Below are positions 55,912-64,000 of a stretch of 64,000 nt of DNA, piece after piece. Every line of letters starts with the position of its first letter. Positions within the stretch are counted from its first letter, which is position 1. The stretch is from Gammaproteobacteria bacterium (GTDB lineage: Bacteria > Pseudomonadota > Gammaproteobacteria > Ga0077536). The stretch covers positions 1 to 64,000 of the forward strand of contig JAJFJQ010000035.1 in the NCBI GenBank assembly GCA_021773835.1, read 5' to 3'. The notes under the pieces were generated by a model that worked only from the letters and a program-made list of their open reading frames with translations, was not told the origin of the DNA and searched no databases. The position numbers and the translations under genes were made by a program.

Positions 55912-56427
55912 ATGAGACAACTCGAATTTATTCGTCGCCTTGCCAATGCCTTGACGACCGTCGGGGTCGCCGTTGCGAGCGGTGCATTGTGCGTTATCGT
56001 GGTTGCATATTGCTACGAAGTGGTGTCGCGCTACTTTTTTAATTATCCGACGCTCTGGGCCAGCGATCTCGTTGCCTTTCTTTTGTTCATTTCAATTTTT
56101 CTCATGATTCCAGAAGTGACTCGAAGCGGCGGGCATGTCAGTGTGACGCTACTTGGAGACCGACTTTCCGAACGCGCAAACGATCGGCTCCAAGCCTGGC
56201 TTGCCTTGCTGAGTGCTGTTGCGTGTTTTGCCGCAGCATGGATCAGCGGACTTGAAAACGTGCGCCAGTTTGTACATGAGATCACCACGGTCTCGGTTTA
56301 CCCGATCCCGAAATGGATCTTATCGTGCACGGTCACCTATGGTTTCGCGCTTTCCGGCACACATTTTCTCCTAATATTTTTATCTCCGGCGGCGATCCGG
56401 GATAGTAAGACAGGTGGATTCACGTGA
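55912..56427 (+). CDS. TRAP transporter small permease, DctQ type
   Basis: A 171-residue protein with four transmembrane helices (about 15-40, 50-68, 90-110 and 130-152). RRLANALTTVGVAVASGALC and YEVVSRYFFNYPTLWASDLVAF are typical of DctQ. It overlaps the next gene by four bases, a common TRAP arrangement. Confidence 0.92.
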   Translation: MRQLEFIRRLANALTTVGVAVASGALCVIVVAYCYEVVSRYFFNYPTLWASDLVAFLLFISIFLMIPEVTRSGGHVSVTLLGDRLSERANDRLQAWLALLSAVACFAAAWISGLENVRQFVHEITTVSVYPIPKWILSCTVTYGFALSGTHFLLIFLSPAAIRDSKTGGFT

Positions 56428-57737
56428 GCGGCGTCGTTCTTGTCATCGCCGCGATCGCATTGCTGTTGTGCCTGTTCGCGTTAGGTGTGCCAGTGGTTAT
56501 CGCATTTCTGTTGTGCGACCTACTCGGTCTCTTGTTGATTACTGGCAGTGCGGGCTTCGGCATGTTTGCCAACAGTATGTTTAACACCGGCACAATGGCC
56601 GCACTGGTTACGATCCCCTTATTTTTGTTGGTCGGCGAGATCCTCGCGCGCGGGCGGGCGATCGAGAAGATGTTTAGTTCGGTCGATACCTTGATCGGGC
56701 ATCTGCGTGGACGCCAATATGTGCTGGCGATCACACTCGCCACAATTTTTGGTGCCTTGTCCGGGACCGCGATGGGGGTCGCGGCGATGTTGGGCCGCTC
56801 GGTGCTCCCGGGCATGCGCGAGCGCAATTACGATGCGCGTTTATCGGCGGGTACGATCATGGCCGGCGCGTGTCTTGCGCCAATTATTCCACCGAGTGTG
56901 CTGGTCATTATTATCGGCACGATGGCCGGGGTCTCGATCGCGGGACTGATGGTCGCCGGCATCCTTCCAGGTTTACTGTTGGCGATCCTGTTTTTGGGCT
57001 ACATCTTGTTTCGGGTTCGTCGAGACCCGAGTCTTGCACCATCGAAAGAGGCGGAGCGAATAGGTTCAGTATCCGAGGTAACGGTTCTCAGTGCGCTGGC
57101 CCAGCTATTGCCCGTGAGCTTCGTGATCCTTTCGATCATGGGCTTGATTCTATTAGGCATCGCAACGCCGTCGGAAGCAGCGGCGACCGGCGTGCTCGGT
57201 GCGATCATCACGGTCGCCATCTATGGCGGACTGAGCTTCGAGATGTTGCGCGCCTCGTTTCGTGCGGCCGCTTACACCGCGGCGATGGTGCTGATCATCA
57301 TGGTCGCATCGAAAATCTTCGGCCAACTATTGGCGTTCACCGGCGCAACCGGGGCGATCACCGGGAGCATCGCGGGTCTCGGTTTGGCACCAGGCATCAT
57401 GTTGATCTTAATGCTCGGGCTGCCGTTTCTACTGTGTATGTTCATCGATCAAATCGCGCTGATGATGGTGATTATTCCGATCTATCGCCCGATTGTGGCG
57501 CAGCTCGGCTTCGACCCGATCTGGTTCTGGTTACTCTTCTTAATCAATATCACCGTCGGCGGTATGACCCCGCCCTTCGGGTATACGATTTTTGCACTAA
57601 AGGGTGTCGTGCGAGATATGTCGATCGCAGAGATGTATCAAGCGGCGTGGCCATTCGTTGGTCTTTTTGTATTTGCAGTGATTCTCTTCGCGCTATTTCC
57701 AAGCCTCGTGACCGTATTGCCACAAGCATTGTTATGA
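56424..57737 (+). CDS. TRAP transporter large permease, DctM type
   Basis: A 437-residue protein with about 12 transmembrane helices. ATIFGALSGTAMGVAAMLGRS, AGACLAPIIPPSVLVIIIG and GIATPSEAAATGVLGAI carry the sodium-binding and family motifs of DctM. It couples sodium import to solute import with DctP and DctQ. Likely cargo, from context, is an aromatic or other carboxylic acid. The system ends just before the element boundary at 57837. Confidence 0.94.
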   Translation: MSGVVLVIAAIALLLCLFALGVPVVIAFLLCDLLGLLLITGSAGFGMFANSMFNTGTMAALVTIPLFLLVGEILARGRAIEKMFSSVDTLIGHLRGRQYVLAITLATIFGALSGTAMGVAAMLGRSVLPGMRERNYDARLSAGTIMAGACLAPIIPPSVLVIIIGTMAGVSIAGLMVAGILPGLLLAILFLGYILFRVRRDPSLAPSKEAERIGSVSEVTVLSALAQLLPVSFVILSIMGLILLGIATPSEAAATGVLGAIITVAIYGGLSFEMLRASFRAAAYTAAMVLIIMVASKIFGQLLAFTGATGAITGSIAGLGLAPGIMLILMLGLPFLLCMFIDQIALMMVIIPIYRPIVAQLGFDPIWFWLLFLINITVGGMTPPFGYTIFALKGVVRDMSIAEMYQAAWPFVGLFVFAVILFALFPSLVTVLPQALL

Positions 57738-57796
57738 GGGAATCACGCCGGGTGCGAGTCTAGTTGCGCTACTAACGATGAAAATTGTTTGGTGCC

Positions 57797-57828
57797 GCGC
57801 GCTAGCGCGCCCAGTTGCGCTGCAGCGC
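57797..57828. terminator. Two short GC palindromes after the TRAP operon
   Basis: GCGCGCTAGCGCGC (57797-57810) is a perfect 14-bp palindrome and GCGCTGCAGCGC (57817-57828) is a perfect 12-bp palindrome. They end 8 bases before the tRNA-Leu fragment. They may terminate the TRAP operon or form structure next to the att site; no T-run is present. Confidence 0.4.
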
Positions 57829-57836
57829 TAGGGATT

Positions 57837-57895
57837 TGGTGCCGGGAGCGAGAATCGAACTCGCACACCCTTTCGGATACCAGATTTTGAGTCTG
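57837..57895 (-). other. att site: 3' fragment of a tRNA-Leu(CAA) gene
   Basis: Read on the minus strand this is the 3' part of a tRNA-Leu: anticodon loop CTCAAAA (anticodon CAA at 57887-57889), a class II variable arm, the T arm GCGAG-TTCGATTC-CTCGC, and the acceptor 3' strand ending CACCA (CCA encoded at 57837-57839). The similarity stops just 5' of the anticodon stem; the D arm and the 5' acceptor strand are missing. Tyrosine recombinases insert at tRNA 3' ends and duplicate this part, so it is the left att copy of the element; the intact tRNA should lie at the other end. Confidence 0.85.
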
Positions 57896-58072
57896 ATAAT
57901 TCAGGATTCCTGAAGATTCCCGGAAATACCTAATTGCTTGAAATTGGTTAGGAATGCCCGTTTACCTTTTCCTGAGATTCCTCTAAATTCTTGAGTATTC
58001 CGCACGAGGTGATTGCTATGTGATTGCTAGTCGGCAGCATTTCGTCTTTATCTTATCGCTGAGGGAAAGTCC

Positions 58073-59302
58073 GTGGCGACCGGCAAAATATCGAAAAGTA
58101 GCGTCAACAAACTTCGACCAGGCGAAAAGGACGAATTTCTCTGGGACGAGGATTTACACGGTTTTGGCGTGAAAGTGACGCGGGCGGGACGGATCGTCTA
58201 CCTCGCCCAGTACCGAATTGGTGGACGCAAGAGTCCCACCCGCCGCGTGACGCTCGGCGAACACGGTAAGTTGACCCCCGCCGAAGCCCGGGTCGAAGCC
58301 CGTAAGGTCCTCGGTAAAGCCGCCCTGATGGAGGATGTCGCCGAAACGCGTGCCAAGCTGCGCAGGCAGGGCACCGTATCCGATGTCGCGGACCGTTACC
58401 TGAAGGAGCACGTGGCCCGACACAACAAGCCCAGTACACAAGCAGAGGCCGGGCGGATTGTGGAAAAGCGTATCCGGCCGGATCTTGGCAAGCTTAAAAT
58501 CCAGGCTTTGACCCGAGCCAAAGCGAAAGAATGGCACCAGGAGATGCGAGACTCCCCGTATGAGGCGAACCGGGCCCTCGCGTACCTGTCGAAGATGATG
58601 TCTCTCGCTGCAGACGAGTGGGAGCTGATTCCGAACAATCCGTGTCGCGGGTTGAAGCGATTTCCCGAGAAAAAGCGGGAACGTTTTTTGACAGAAGAGG
58701 AGCTTACTGAGCTAGGCAAAGCCTTATCCCGATGCGAGAAAAGTAGTGCCGTCCCTGAAACGTTTTCAGGCGCGCTGAGATTGTTATCGATCACAGGCTG
58801 TCGCATGAGTGAAATCCTGAATCTCCGATGGGAGGACGTGGATAACGATCTATCCGCGCTGCGCCTAGCGGATGCGAAAACAGGACCGCGAGTCGTTCCG
58901 CTCGCCGGCGCCGCGCAGAAACTTCTCAGGAAATTGGACAGGACCGACGGGTGGGTATTTCCGGCCATCAAACACGATCTGCCAATGTCCCGACACGCGT
59001 TCCACCATTACTGGACGCGGGTAAAGAACGAGTCGGCATTGTCCAACATCCGCCCGCACGACCTCCGACATACGGCAGGCACCTATGCGGCGCAGGCAGG
59101 ATTTAACGCCTTCCATGTTCGGGATTATCTTGGACATCGCTCGCTCGCGATGAGTGGTCGTTATGTGGAACGCTCTGCCGATCCGATTCGAGCAACGGCT
59201 GATTCGGTCGGTACAAGGATCGCGAATGCGTTGGAGGGTAAACAAGCTGGACGTGTAATAGGCCTGAAACAGCGAAGAAAACCGTCCGGGAAGAAACCTT
59301 GA
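58073..59302 (+). CDS. Tyrosine integrase of the island
   Basis: A 409-residue phage-type integrase starting at GTG 58073. It has an N-terminal arm-binding domain with a DUF4102-like RKSPTRRVTLGEHGKLTPAEARVEA segment, a core-binding domain (about 105-185) and the catalytic domain with Arg in TGCRMSEIL, HxxR in PHDLRHTAGTYA, GH in LGHRSLAMSGRYV and Tyr in the last. It is 178 bp from the tRNA fragment, which is where integrase genes normally sit. It overlaps the next gene by four bases. Confidence 0.95.
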   Translation: MATGKISKSSVNKLRPGEKDEFLWDEDLHGFGVKVTRAGRIVYLAQYRIGGRKSPTRRVTLGEHGKLTPAEARVEARKVLGKAALMEDVAETRAKLRRQGTVSDVADRYLKEHVARHNKPSTQAEAGRIVEKRIRPDLGKLKIQALTRAKAKEWHQEMRDSPYEANRALAYLSKMMSLAADEWELIPNNPCRGLKRFPEKKRERFLTEEELTELGKALSRCEKSSAVPETFSGALRLLSITGCRMSEILNLRWEDVDNDLSALRLADAKTGPRVVPLAGAAQKLLRKLDRTDGWVFPAIKHDLPMSRHAFHHYWTRVKNESALSNIRPHDLRHTAGTYAAQAGFNAFHVRDYLGHRSLAMSGRYVERSADPIRATADSVGTRIANALEGKQAGRVIGLKQRRKPSGKKP

Positions 59303-60780
59303 AAGGCCCGGTCGACGCTTTCGACGAAGTTCATTGGAATTTAGCGCAGCTAGCTGCGTGGGTATGTCTGCGTGATCGGGAATTAGTTACCCAGCATTCG
59401 GATACGCGTGACGATAAGCCATCCGCTAGCCACGTCGCCGTCGCTCTGGCGTTGCGCCAAGGCTACGAGGAGACACGATGGGGCGTCGTGCTGAACCAAG
59501 TCATGCTCGCTCTACAGGAAGGCAAAATCGAGGCTTCCGGGGTTCGAGTCGGTACTAATGTGCGGGCAATAATCGACGCGCTCGATTGGGCGGATCTTGA
59601 TTTCAAATTTGATCCGGATCAGGCGATGGAAACAAATTCGAGCGGAATTTGGGAGCCGCGCTGGGAGAAACTGAAGTTCCGTCGGGCGGGCATTTTGGCC
59701 AACTGGCCCGAAATAGACGTTCATACCGCTACCGACGCGCCACCCGATATCAAAGTCAAAGAACTTCGCGCTTGGTTAAAACACGACTCCTGGACGGCCG
59801 CTGAGGCAATGCTGATTTTGCATGGCAAGGTACCGAGGGAGCCGTGGTTACAGAATGACGAGTTGGAGACTCATTTTCCGCAGGCGAAAGTTTATCTGAA
59901 CCGAGCGCTTCAGAGCGGAATCGTGGGCGAGCGAGTACGCGTCGATGGACGGGCTCAGTGGATTGATACACCTGTTCGCTGGTTGGACTGGGCAATTCAT
60001 AAAATTTCAATTCCAAAGCTCGTCCAGTCTGCGTTTCATGAGAACCGGTACGCTGCGACGCCTCGAGTCCATTATTTGCGGGCGAAAGCTCTCCTCCGAG
60101 AGAGACTTCAAGCTGGTCCTCAGGAAATAGCGATGTGGGTTTTCATGGAGGAGTTGATCGCTTGGCAAGGTCAGGAGCTCGGTTCGCAACGTTTCTATTT
60201 CGAATGGATGCCGGGAGACGACTACGATTATGTGAACCGTCTTATTGATACGGACTTCTCCAGCGACCAACTGAATCTATTTCAACCCCACGAACGGTGG
60301 CTGACCCATCGGGAATTGATCGAACGATGGGCCACCTCGATGACCCGCGATGAGGCGCTGAGCCTGATTCGGTCTCGAGCCAAAAGTGGCGATCTTGTAG
60401 TGGCGCACCCGCTCGCGGGCATACCCAGCGACGATGGCGAACCAGGGTTGGAGGACTGTCTCTTTTCTGCTGCGGACGCCGAACAGTTGCAGGCCGAATT
60501 TGGGGTACGACCGTCTGATAAAGGCACCAGCACACGAGAGCCTGCTGATGAAGAGCCAGTGTCGCCCGTAGGACTGATCTCGGCAGAAGTAAAATGCCGA
60601 AAATGGCTCGAACAGCTTATGGACGAGGGCGGCTCATCTCGGCAACCCAAACGAGCCTACCTCGCTGAAGCACAGCAAAAATTTTCGGGACTTTCGCAAC
60701 GCTCGTTCGACACCGCCTGGAAACAGGCGATTTCAAACACCGGGAATTCCCAATGGTCGAAACCAGGACGGAAATCCTAA
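59299..60780 (+). CDS. Unknown protein coupled to the integrase
   Basis: A 493-residue protein starting at TTG 59299, which overlaps the integrase stop (TTGA). It is soluble and helical, with many Trp residues: FDEVHWNLAQLAAWVCLRD near the start, EPRWEKLKF, a middle ELIAWQGQELG and, near 330, a possible winged-helix segment WLTHRELIERWATSMTRDEALS. The C-terminus RSFDTAWKQAISNTG then WSKPGRKS is a tail I recall from other integrase-linked proteins, where it resembles DNA-interacting modules. Function unknown; a role in excision, transfer or regulation is possible. Confidence 0.75.
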   Translation: MKGPVDAFDEVHWNLAQLAAWVCLRDRELVTQHSDTRDDKPSASHVAVALALRQGYEETRWGVVLNQVMLALQEGKIEASGVRVGTNVRAIIDALDWADLDFKFDPDQAMETNSSGIWEPRWEKLKFRRAGILANWPEIDVHTATDAPPDIKVKELRAWLKHDSWTAAEAMLILHGKVPREPWLQNDELETHFPQAKVYLNRALQSGIVGERVRVDGRAQWIDTPVRWLDWAIHKISIPKLVQSAFHENRYAATPRVHYLRAKALLRERLQAGPQEIAMWVFMEELIAWQGQELGSQRFYFEWMPGDDYDYVNRLIDTDFSSDQLNLFQPHERWLTHRELIERWATSMTRDEALSLIRSRAKSGDLVVAHPLAGIPSDDGEPGLEDCLFSAADAEQLQAEFGVRPSDKGTSTREPADEEPVSPVGLISAEVKCRKWLEQLMDEGGSSRQPKRAYLAEAQQKFSGLSQRSFDTAWKQAISNTGNSQWSKPGRKS

Positions 60781-60890
60781 CAGCGTATCGATACGCCAAT
60801 TAAATCGTGACGACTATTTAGGCGAGCCAAGTTCCTCCAGATTGCACGCTATACCGCAGGGTATGCGGGGAATTACGGAGCAACCTGGAG

Positions 60891-61100
60891 ATGATTACTG
60901 ACGAAACCAGCGGCAGCCGTTTGTCGACGGATGCCGCCGCGGACTACACGGGGCTCGGCCGCCAAACGCTCGCAAAGTTGCGTGTTTACGGTGGAGGACC
61001 CAGATTCATTAAGCTCGGGCGGCGTGTTGTTTACGACTCGCGCGACCTCGATTCCTGGATGGAGTCGCGCAAGCGGTCGTCCACTTCGGAAGGCGAGTAG
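60891..61100 (+). CDS. Excisionase/AlpA-type HTH protein
   Basis: A 69-residue winged-helix protein of the HTH_17 (MerR-like) class: RLSTDAAADYTGLGRQTLAKLRVYG, then GPRFIKLGRRVVYDSRDLDSWM. This is the usual shape of recombination directionality factors and AlpA-like regulators. It lies 16 bp upstream of the next HTH gene and is likely to regulate the element. Confidence 0.85.
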   Translation: MITDETSGSRLSTDAAADYTGLGRQTLAKLRVYGGGPRFIKLGRRVVYDSRDLDSWMESRKRSSTSEGE

Positions 61101-61116
61101 TATCGGACCTGCCGGC

Positions 61117-61560
61117 ATGGGCTCGCGCAAGCTGAATCCCCGCCTCGCCAAGATCCATCGGAACTATACGGTTGAGGAAGTTGCGAATCTGTACGGCATT
61201 CACCGCAATACCGTCAGGCAGTGGATCAAGCAGGGGTTACCCGTCATCGACGACAAACGGCCGGCGCTAATCCTCGGTCGCGATCTCTTCAGCTTCATCG
61301 ACGTCAAACGGAAGAAAAACAAACGGCGATGCCCGGATGGCTATTTGTACTGCCTTCGTTGCCGCGAACCCCGCCGACCGATCAACGATTCGGCGATATA
61401 CGTGCCAGCCACCGAGTGTAACGGGAACCTAATAGCCAACTGCAGCCAATGCGAAACGACCATGTATCGACGGGTGAATGCGGCTAGGTTGGACGCGGTC
61501 CGGGGAGATATTGAGATTCGCGCCGCGAAAAGCCCTTCACGTATATGTGCGCACGATTAA
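61117..61560 (+). CDS. HTH protein with a zinc-ribbon-like C-terminus
   Basis: A 147-residue protein from ATG 61117. An N-terminal HTH (YTVEEVANLYGIHRNTVRQWIKQG) is followed by IDDKRPALILGRDLFSFID, then a Cys-containing segment with YCLRCREP and later NCSQCETT, plus a single Cys between, which fits a four-Cys zinc ribbon. It is likely to bind DNA and to work with the recombinase encoded 39 bp downstream. Confidence 0.8.
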   Translation: MGSRKLNPRLAKIHRNYTVEEVANLYGIHRNTVRQWIKQGLPVIDDKRPALILGRDLFSFIDVKRKKNKRRCPDGYLYCLRCREPRRPINDSAIYVPATECNGNLIANCSQCETTMYRRVNAARLDAVRGDIEIRAAKSPSRICAHD

Positions 61561-61599
61561 CTCTCCCTAAACAGTGACTTCAACAAGGGCGACGGACGG

Positions 61600-62691
61600 A
61601 TGAAAAAACACAACGCGAGTAACGAACGTGTGAAGCGCCAGTATCTATGCTTCCTAAAAGAGGCTAAACGGCAAAGCGAGGCAACGATAGACAGCGTAGC
61701 GAAGGCATTCGCTAGGTTTGAGGAGCACACCGATTTTCGAGACTTCAAGCGGTTTCACCGTGAGCAAGCTATTTCGTTTAAGCGGCATCTCGCAGAAGTA
61801 CGAAGCTGCTCCACTAGCGGGAAATTGAGTAAATCGACTATGCACGCGACGCTCGCCCATTTGAAGCGGTTTTTCGAGTGGCTTGCCATGCAGCCTGGTT
61901 ATAAGTCGCGCGTTCAATATACGGATGCGGAATATTTCAATCTGTCAGAAAACGATACGCGGATCGCGACGGCGCGCCGGGAGCGGCCGTACCCAACACT
62001 AAAACAAGTGAAATCCACGCTCGCAGGAATGCCGCAAAATTCAGAAATCGAAAATAGAAACCGGGCGCTCGTTGCGTTTTCGTTATTAACGGGTGCGCGC
62101 GACAGTGCAATCGCGTCGGCCAAATTGAAACATGTCGATATAGAGCAGCGGTTGTTTTTCCAGGATGCCCGTGACGTAAAGACGAAATTCAGGAAGAGCT
62201 TTCCGACGTACTTTTTCCCGGTGGGCGACGAAGTGCTCAAGGTCTTCGACGATTGGTTGGACTACCTCCGACGCGTGAAGCTGTATGTGAACGAGGACCC
62301 GCTATTCCCATCGACCAATATCGTCGTGAATGAAAATCAGCGCTTCGAGCCCGGAGGGATCAGTCGGGAACATTGGAAAAATACGTCGGCGATTCGAAAA
62401 ATATTTCGCGCGTCGTTTGAAGCGGTCAATCTCCCGTATTTCAACCCGCATAGCATTCGTAAAACCTTGGTCGAATTCGGGTCAAAAGTCTGTCAAACGC
62501 CGCAAGAGTTTAAGGCCTGGAGTCAGAATCTCGGCCACGAAGGCGTTTTGACTACGTTCGATAGTTACGGATATGTAAACGATAGAGATCAACGGGAGAT
62601 CATTCTCGGGTTAGATCCGCAGCGTAGTAAGGAAACGTTGGATATCGAACGCATTGCGGAGGCGGTTGCGCGACAACTTAAGCATGGGTAG
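61600..62691 (+). CDS. Second tyrosine recombinase
   Basis: A 363-residue recombinase of a type distinct from the first integrase. A SAM-like core-binding domain occupies about 10-100 (KRQSEATIDSVAKAFARFEEHT). The catalytic domain has Arg in LTGARDSAIASAKLKHVD, HxxR in FNPHSIRKTLVEFG, GH in NLGHEGVLTTFDSYG and Tyr just after. It lacks the DUF4102 arm-binding domain of the first. It follows the HTH/zinc-ribbon gene closely and may form a recombination module with it. Confidence 0.92.
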   Translation: MKKHNASNERVKRQYLCFLKEAKRQSEATIDSVAKAFARFEEHTDFRDFKRFHREQAISFKRHLAEVRSCSTSGKLSKSTMHATLAHLKRFFEWLAMQPGYKSRVQYTDAEYFNLSENDTRIATARRERPYPTLKQVKSTLAGMPQNSEIENRNRALVAFSLLTGARDSAIASAKLKHVDIEQRLFFQDARDVKTKFRKSFPTYFFPVGDEVLKVFDDWLDYLRRVKLYVNEDPLFPSTNIVVNENQRFEPGGISREHWKNTSAIRKIFRASFEAVNLPYFNPHSIRKTLVEFGSKVCQTPQEFKAWSQNLGHEGVLTTFDSYGYVNDRDQREIILGLDPQRSKETLDIERIAEAVARQLKHG

Positions 62692-62817
62692 CGAAAAGAT
62701 CAAATGCCCCACCTAAAGATACGCCGATTCAATCCAGTGCGCTCCGAATTACGTCATTATTTGTACGTGGCGTCGATCCTGATCGCCATCAAATTAACAA
62801 TTCGGAGGAAAGCAGTT

Positions 62818-63027
62818 ATGCAAATAAACCATCTTCCCGTTCCTGGGTACTCACGGCTTCGCGATGTCCTGGCAGTAATCCCCGTTAGCCGAAGCGCTTG
62901 GTATGCGGCAATCGCGAAAGGCCGCGTGTTGCCAGCAACAAAACTAGGCGCCCGGACTGCCGCCTGGTCAAACGCATACCTGAACGAGTTACTTGATCGC
63001 ATCGAAGCGGGAGAGCGGGTCCTCTAG
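62818..63027 (+). CDS. AlpA-like HTH protein
   Basis: A 69-residue protein from ATG 62818 with a strong GGAGG ribosome site about 12 bases upstream. The HTH is YSRLRDVLAVIPVSRSAWYAAIAKGRVLPATKLG, followed by TAAWSNAYLNELLDRIEAG. AlpA and related proteins regulate excision. It is the second small HTH protein of the island. Confidence 0.85.
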   Translation: MQINHLPVPGYSRLRDVLAVIPVSRSAWYAAIAKGRVLPATKLGARTAAWSNAYLNELLDRIEAGERVL

Positions 63028-63165
63028 AAGATTCGACGGTAAAATATCGACAACGCTATGGCACGCAGTATTTCGTCAGCGGCGCTAAGAGTCCTCTGAT
63101 GATTCATCGGCGCTCTGTATGCACTTCTCGTTTTGCGCCGCTACGCTTTTTGTTAGGCCGGAAAA

Positions 63166-63411
63166 TTAATCAGGCGCATCCTTGAGGGTTGCCTCATTCT
63201 TTCGCGCAGATTCTAAAAACGGCCAAGCCGCAGCGACATCGAGAATAGTGCATCCGCTAAAAGCCCATGCAACACGCCAAAACGCGCCGGGCCGCCCGTC
63301 TAGAAGGGTCCGGTCGGCTACCAAGTGATACAAGAATTCGTTCTCGCCCCAACGAATTTCACGCGCGATTACACATATACAAGCGTCTTCCATCCGTGTA
63401 AGAAGATTCAT
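63166..63411 (-). CDS. Small protein of unknown function
   Basis: An 81-residue reading frame on the minus strand, divergent from the HD-domain gene with a 34-bp gap. The sequence (CICVIAREIRWGENEFLYHLV, then PGAFWRVAWAFSGCTILDVAAAWPFL) looks like a compact soluble protein with several Cys and Trp residues. No ribosome site is clear and no family is recognised; it could be a chance frame. Confidence 0.4.
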   Translation of the reverse strand: MNLLTRMEDACICVIAREIRWGENEFLYHLVADRTLLDGRPGAFWRVAWAFSGCTILDVAAAWPFLESARKNEATLKDAPD

Positions 63412-63445
63412 ATCATGGGTTCAGCTAGTCGGCACGAGCTTAATC

Positions 63446-63937
63446 ATGATCCCGTCCGAACTTATCGCTTTCCTTCGGAACGAATTTCAGCTCGACTGGC
63501 ACGGCATTCATGGTGCCGGACACTGGGCGCGAGTTCGCTACAACGGACTTCTAATTGCGTGCCGAAACGGCGCGAATATTCAGGTCGTAGAATTGTTCGC
63601 ATTTCTTCACGACGCTCGGCGTCTTGACGATGGTCGCGATCCCTTTCATGGCGAGAGGGCGGCGACGCTCGTTCGCGAACTCGACGGGAGGTTTTTCTCT
63701 TTAGCACCTGAAGAGCTGCGCCTCTTAGAACGGGCCTGCCGTGATCACAGCGACGGGCGCGTTGAGGCGGACATAACCATCCAGACGTGTTGGGATGCAG
63801 ATCGACTCGATTTGGGGCGCATTGGAATCATACCTAACCCGGATTATCTCAGCACCGATGAGGCACGAGAACCGGAGGTGATCGCCGCCGCAATGAGCCG
63901 CAGCGCTGCCGCGCAGAAAATGTTTATTGCCGTGTAG
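63446..63937 (+). CDS. HD-domain phosphohydrolase
   Basis: A 163-residue protein with the HD-type metal motif: HGIHGAGHWARV (first His), LFAFLHDARR (HD), the DPFHGERAA pair and a later CWDADRLDL Asp. HD enzymes hydrolyse nucleotides or cyclic dinucleotides. It is cargo of the island, possibly linked to defence or nucleotide signalling. The ATG at 63446 overlaps no other gene. Confidence 0.82.
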   Translation: MIPSELIAFLRNEFQLDWHGIHGAGHWARVRYNGLLIACRNGANIQVVELFAFLHDARRLDDGRDPFHGERAATLVRELDGRFFSLAPEELRLLERACRDHSDGRVEADITIQTCWDADRLDLGRIGIIPNPDYLSTDEAREPEVIAAAMSRSAAAQKMFIAV

Positions 63938-64000
63938 TAGGATTCTGCATTCTGTCGTTAACGTAAAATCATTTTTCTCAACCATAAGGCGATTTTAAGT

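Follow-up and report, generated by a model that had tools for sequence, protein, structure and literature searches.

A tRNA-Leu(CAA) 3′ fragment marks one end of a tRNA-inserted island whose integrase lies beside the fragment

The window, by which we mean the whole 64,000-nt stretch of DNA analysed here, lies at the start of contig C29 and shares its numbering. Near its right end, a gene for a DctM-type TRAP transporter (56424..57737, + strand; Pfam DctM, 2.3e-70) forms the left host flank and is followed by a 59-bp segment (57837..57895) whose minus strand runs from the anticodon stem to the CCA of a tRNA-Leu(CAA). An earlier note on this DNA had given these coordinates, the strand and the anticodon correctly, together with the distance of 178 bp (58073 minus 57895) to the start codon of a tyrosine integrase gene at 58073. 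This integrase (58073..59302, + strand, 409 aa) is encoded by an uninterrupted frame with the motifs TGCR, HDLRH, LGHR and SGRY and possesses an arm DNA-binding domain (Pfam Phage_integrase, 5.3e-25; Phage_int_SAM_3, 2.7e-9; Arm-DNA-bind_3, 9.8e-9), the scores for Arm-DNA-bind_3 and Phage_integrase both being above the curated cut-offs, as in P4-type (arm-domain) integrases. Between the fragment and the integrase gene lies one copy of a 21-bp element, GGTGATTGCTATGTGATTGCT (58008..58028, + strand), and a consensus scan of 57700-58200 detected neither a sigma-70 promoter nor a terminator. The 10-mer TTTGGTGCCG occurs five times on the + strand of the window (39695, 45902, 49248, 57788 and 57835; 0.15 expected); the copy at 57788 was considered as an older attachment remnant and rejected on account of these five occurrences, the contexts of which look unlike.

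The end of the integrase gene is overlapped by a 493-aa ORF (59299..60780, + strand), for which no match was found in Pfam, PADLOC, PHROGs or NCBIfam and no relative in the 19 related elements described below. Further downstream lies a gene for a 69-aa HTH protein (60891..61100, + strand; Pfam HTH_17, 3.4e-8), a candidate excisionase (directionality factor) that matches PHROG 66, excisionase and regulator (1.2e-7), remains under the cut-off of NCBIfam TIGR01764 excise (22.2 of 28.8 bits) and has relatives within the first 15 kb of 12 of the 19 related elements. A second tyrosine recombinase (61600..62691, + strand; Pfam Phage_integrase, 1.5e-10), in which no arm domain was found and which has no relative in the 19 elements at E 1e-2, precedes a gene for an AlpA-like small DNA-binding protein (62704..63027, + strand; Pfam Phage_AlpA, 6.7e-4, just under the cut-off). 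The two genes (61600-63027) perhaps represent a nested or older element; a nested element with a long repeat of its own was rejected, as no repeat of at least 18 bp was present inside L007:1830-20000 or L008:1-4000, each scanned separately.

The island also codes for a serine recombinase and a DUF6998 protein. Beyond the window, genes for an SNF2-type helicase (best PADLOC match, C3a139), a DUF4391 protein and type III Mod and Res proteins stand in a row (L007:10833-19992; C29:66832-75991). The neighbouring Mod and Res frames (MTase_III, 2.2e-197; REase_III, 1218 bits) mark a putative type III restriction-modification system, with which the helicase and the DUF4391 protein may belong. After this cluster follows an LmuA/LmuB-like pair (L008:7-3429; C29:76006-79428), in which genes matching LmuA (9.5e-23) and LmuB (2.7e-99) occur together as in Lamassu systems, with a 185-aa frame between the two. 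Judged from these matches, the island likely carries anti-virus defence genes, and the families found in it include none that we recognised as conjugation genes. Near the right island end, a short frame (L008:3531-3716) reads by eye like the start of a transposase; it had no Pfam match at E 0.1 and was rejected as a transposase remnant.

All 59 bp of the fragment (59/59) are repeated at C29:79789-79847, 21,952 bp to the right, on the minus strand and in the same orientation, where they form the 3′ part of an intact tRNA-Leu(CAA) gene (C29:79789-79875, minus strand). The repeat is exactly 59 bp long, with no extra matching base beyond either end, and when the 88 bases of an ARAGORN call over the fragment were compared with the genome to which the window belongs (6.14 Mb, 74 contigs), no further strong copy appeared, the next match spanning 20 bases (E = 1.63). 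The island thus delimited is 21,952 bp long; the window holds its left part (57837..64000), and it continues to C29:79788 beside the intact tRNA gene. Its G+C content is 50.0%, compared with 53.9% in the window to its left and 54.6% in the 16 kb to its right, where frames were named queA, tgt, yajC, secD and secF from reading of the frames alone. Two congeners, G001 and G003, have a dctM-like gene (70% and 80% DNA identity to the window's gene, respectively), tRNA-Leu and a queA-like gene adjacent to each other, and the island is absent; in G003, a run of N (an assembly gap) splits the tRNA-Leu gene at the empty site. A third congener searched (G002, 57% complete) gave no match. Since the flanks are joined without the island in G001 and G003, the stretch is best explained as DNA inserted into the window's genome.

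These results agree with the earlier note, which had taken the fragment for the left border of an island, had expected, beyond the right edge of the window, an intact tRNA-Leu(CAA) on the minus strand that shares this 3′ half, and had proposed a comparison with relatives lacking the island: the exact repeat at the far end, the intact gene and the empty site in two of the three other congeners searched were all found. The note had also named two outcomes that would count against it. One, the lack of a matching intact tRNA in the remaining genome, was not seen, as the gene exists; as to the other, a fragment without an island, no clean 59-bp fragment occurs among the matches listed in 95 other genomes, which reach about E = 1.5e-4. 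Two of these listed matches cover the 3′ half only, one in G003, with its gene split by N, and one on C31 of G016. The latter (L051:7548-7613; G016:C31:83547-83612), in a genome of the same family, is a degenerate tRNA-Leu-like 3′ remnant adjoining frames that were named helicase-like and GNAT-like by eye, and perhaps goes back to an old island at this type of tRNA. With an intact tRNA at one end, a 3′ fragment in the same orientation at the other, an integrase inside and an uninterrupted site in G001 and G003, the segment 57837-57895 is confirmed as one end of a tRNA-inserted island that is ordinary in kind, and the exact repeat at the intact tRNA together with the empty sites identifies the fragment as its displaced attachment core.

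The 21-bp element near the left end has a second, exactly matching copy near the right end (C29:79730-79750, same strand), the distances from the core being 112 bp (left) and 38 bp (right). The element consists of one motif present twice, 11 bp apart. At up to two mismatches, its 20-base form matched nowhere else in the genome, at three mismatches it gave one match, and the pattern read backwards had none. Arm-type sites of tyrosine integrases are often made of one repeated motif, and the two elements are, by their sequence, probable arm sites of the integrase. In a set of 12 elements (the window's island and 11 relatives; G590 was left out), the longest exact match between left and right arms was 9-24 bp and reached at least 19 bp in seven; the 132 mismatched arm pairs gave 6-12 bp, with one at 20 bp, so that, by that measure alone, the five elements at 9-12 bp are not exceptional. 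Self-identity at a lag of 11 bp was 0.56 and 0.57 on the two arms, and at most 0.32 at other lags from 5 to 17. Arm positions were set by shared matches rather than by periodicity and, among several matches, were chosen by hand.

A pattern search for close relatives of the integrase gave one distant match in genome contigs and none in viral contigs, and no match at E <= 1e-60 was obtained in 368 other genomes of the class, with at most a few candidates scored per genome. At E <= 1e-45, matches were present in 34 of 398 genomes of the phylum, the window's own included, and we assembled 31 relatives, namely 29 loci from 29 of the 33 other matching genomes and two plasmid records, both from Alphaproteobacteria. 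Most of the other relatives come from the same phylum and another class than the window's genome, L080 (G760) being from the same class. A strict T-arm scan of up to 700 bp upstream of the integrase gene detected a tRNA 3′ end antisense to it in 24 of the 31 and a sense one in none (0.08 per set in 100 shuffled sets), and the same scan downstream found none in the 31 relatives. A relaxed scan in which CCA was required, run on the seven misses of the strict scan and on L081 and having no control of its own, added L056 and L068, the latter (G590) with a 47-base match to an intact tRNA downstream, and brought the count of antisense 3′ ends to 26 of 31. In L061, L067, L070, L072 and L074, neither scan found an antisense 3′ end; for L072 and L074, the sequence to be scanned was limited to 204 and 394 bp, respectively. 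Two antisense T arms are located upstream in L081, one of them within an intact tRNA-Asn, and the antisense T arm of L079 is 439 bp from the integrase gene. Apart from the antisense tRNA-Asn of L081 and a tRNA-Ser in L083, on the integrase strand and 2.3 kb upstream, ARAGORN reported no tRNA in the 31 loci, leaving 29 with none. In most of the sampled relatives, the usual place of the integrase is beside the cast-off tRNA piece and not the restored tRNA.

We examined the DNA downstream of the integrase in 19 relatives and found an intact tRNA at the far end in 12, with an exact repeat in nine and an inexact match in three (G680, G552 and G590). In the other seven (G483, G623, G760, G750, G525, G458 and the Indioceanicola record), an intact partner was not found in the 7.6-59.5 kb covered. 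The nine exact repeats (45-67 bp) connect the fragment with an intact tRNA 7.1-40.2 kb downstream, always antisense to the integrase; the integrases of G499 and the Ruegeria record are near-identical and these two cases are therefore not independent. The far-end tRNAs of the relatives are Met, Thr, Lys and Pro. In all nine exact cases, the repeat stops on its inner side 33-35 bases from the T-arm start; by tRNA numbering, it would include the anticodon loop and up to two of the stem pairs of that loop. Relatives with a short span and both ends found measure 7-10 kb. By eye, L084, L087, L090, L096, L106 and L104 within this size range are alike in their integrase, a small HTH gene and a further frame, and bear varied cargo resembling restriction, methylase or ATPase genes; they possibly constitute a family of small defence-carrying islands. 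Nearby, AAA-family and other genes are annotated in the Ruegeria and Indioceanicola records.

It is very likely that a mobile island inserted in the host tRNA-Leu(CAA) gene, leaving a restored tRNA on the right and the host's 3′ half as the fragment on the left. We favour this reading because of the exact repeat, the intact tRNA, the empty sites, the lower G+C content, the nearby integrase, the 21-bp elements and, in the relatives, the layout and the tandem motif at 11 bp on both arms; the seven of 19 relatives in which no partner was found, the arm matches of 9-12 bp in five of 12 elements, the lack of a sigma-70 promoter in the scan and the two of 30 control integrases (described below) that are reversed outside the clade speak against it. 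In circular form, the island would have brought along a tRNA 3′ half of its own as attachment core, flanked on either side by paired arm sites, and would most likely have been inserted by its own tyrosine integrase at the anticodon-loop region of the host gene. The crossover would have created a restored tRNA gene at the right end, made of the host 5′ half and the island 3′ half, and would have displaced the original 3′ half of the host gene to the left border as the 59-bp fragment. As the integrase gene of the circular form would be situated 5′ of the tRNA half, it would come to lie beside the fragment after integration, away from the working tRNA. We infer that this integrase made the insertion and that the 69-aa HTH protein aids excision.

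ARAGORN called a complete 88-nt tRNA-Leu(CAA) at 57837-57924 (minus strand). We take this full-length call to be false and due to chance; with this refinement, the statement of the earlier note that the fragment lacks the D arm and the 5′ acceptor strand holds in substance. The call arose because the adjoining island DNA (57896..57924, minus strand) pairs with six of seven acceptor positions and forms a hairpin in the place of the D arm, as read by eye. The chance that the call and the acceptor pairs reflect a second, working tRNA-Leu(CAA) gene is negligible: when the 59 bp were fused to shuffled flanks or to flanks from within the island, a tRNA was also called in 34 and 71 of 2000 fusions, respectively, placing the call at about the 2-4% level by chance; Rfam matched the region only to tRNA-Sec with 27 bits, below the gathering score of 47; and the fragment was called as a tRNA in none of the nine relatives having an exact repeat, in which a chance tRNA-like 5′ half kept as a conserved feature was likewise not seen. 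By these controls, Rfam and the relatives, a second tRNA gene was rejected. The region is also, by eye, without T8 and without GG in the D loop, both of which are the rule for tRNAs. Such a false call is a warning for automatic annotation. That the second copy stems from duplication of a tRNA end or from homologous recombination, with the integrase as a bystander, is very improbable; other events are conceivable in an island that encodes two tyrosine recombinases and a serine recombinase, but the identity comprises exactly the 3′ half from the anticodon stem, the same cut recurs in nine of nine exact-repeat relatives with the integrase at the same place, and the arm-like elements match at both ends. 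Less remote, though still unlikely, is a role of the 21-bp elements in binding a directionality factor or repressor instead of the arm domain of the integrase. The winged-helix factor RdfS of ICEMlSymR7A was proposed to bind much like BldC, neighbouring molecules being spaced by one turn of DNA (PMC11963761). The spacing of the present motifs is close to one turn. Yet related elements have the pair, unchanged in form, to the left and right of the core, which is expected of arm sites.

Control loci were drawn from 115 genomes of the class, 55 of which had an integrase with an arm domain, by choosing 30 loci among the best-scoring, one per genome; the arm domain of the window's integrase reaches just 39.8 bits, and these controls are therefore no close relatives of it. 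In 25 of the 30, the integrase is preceded on its own strand by an intact tRNA or tmRNA whose 3′ end faces it (the called tRNA being more than 600 bp away in L126 and L129), unlike the window's integrase, which adjoins the fragment and has the intact tRNA at the far end instead of the usual P4-type placement by an intact tRNA. Among the remaining controls, L150 and L151 have the reversed layout (an antisense T arm with CCA) outside the clade, L154 has an antisense intact tRNA-Arg, and nothing was found upstream in L127 and L153. The controls include one from the window's own genome (L134, tRNA-Thr) and one using tRNA-Leu(CAA) in the usual layout (L132). In a tree of 58 integrases (the 31 relatives and the window's, plus 26 controls with a length of 300 aa or more), a single change split the 28 reversed layouts from the 21 usual ones, with a support of 100/99 and in 100% of 200 bootstrap trees, and a value as low was reached in 0 of 500 shuffles; the bootstrap was still unsettled (0.962), nine rows are unlabelled, including L056, which is itself reversed, and L151, L152 and L080 have long branches. 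As the relatives were picked by similarity and the controls by domain score, intermediates are thinly sampled. Together with the two reversed controls and the unsettled bootstrap, this gives some weight to the possibility that the reversed layout is common and scattered, and that the contrast in the tree results from how rows were picked; the single change with its support argues against it, and we regard it as doubtful. We are evenly divided on the joint reading, i.e., an arm-domain clade in at least two classes of one phylum, with a mirror-image attachment region that arose once and with islands that surveys miss.

The published work compared here includes studies of S. meliloti hot spots (PMC11476347), archaeal recombinases (PMC8371274), Integrase-On-Demand (PMC12884075) and Vibrio islands (PMC6360697). 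Like the Islander islands, of which 3919 are reported, 2083 with an anticodon-centred sub-site and 3760 with a 3′ fragment, the present island has an intact tRNA at one end, a 3′ fragment in the same orientation at the other, a tyrosine integrase between and an anticodon-centred crossover; the end at which the integrase lies is not treated in the passages available (PMC4383910). As described for KplE1, the integrase promoter region would overlap the attachment region (PMC2951348). In the survey accompanying that description, 1273 tRNA-adjacent integrases (tRNAscan-SE) comprised 736 same-strand, tRNA-first pairs, 438 convergent pairs and fewer than 8% in the other two classes, and self-control was predicted for the same-strand, tRNA-first and the divergent pairs (PMC2951348). 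Unlike these pairs, the integrase here lies by the fragment, with the intact tRNA about 22 kb off. An N-terminal arm domain is shared with the DUF4102 (arm-domain) integrases, the IntSXT subgroup with the P4 cluster, and tRNA-gene insertion was reported for the P4 cluster (Smyshlyaev et al., PMC8138268). ICEMlSymR7A of Mesorhizobium has five arm-type motifs (TGKTGGTATC), a wHTH directionality factor and an insertion in a phe-tRNA gene; the window's island resembles it in a core flanked by several probable arm-type motifs, a small HTH protein as candidate factor and the tRNA insertion, and differs from this conjugative element of hundreds of kb (PMC11963761). In the literature on tRNA islands and integrases searched, mostly outside subscription papers and available in part, we found no account of a clade with the integrase beside the fragment.

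Beyond the earlier note, the location of the integrase at the less usual end and the arm-like repeats are the parts worth following. With both ends mapped to the base, an empty site, probable arm sites and a candidate excisionase, excision of this island is directly testable. If the reversed layout is a true trait of the group, the integrase would lie beside the discarded fragment, while the working tRNA would close the cargo end; the integrase would escape transcription that reads through from the host tRNA promoter, and arm sites located directly before its gene could serve self-control. The locus L132, which also uses a tRNA-Leu(CAA) but in the usual layout, and the window's island would then offer a natural contrast in the influence of the host tRNA promoter on integrase control. 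A T arm with CCA in antisense orientation, about 170-440 bp before an integrase gene, could serve as a search rule for islands that searches by tRNA adjacency pass over. Surveys of tRNA-adjacent integrases would miss such islands, several of which appear to carry defence genes.
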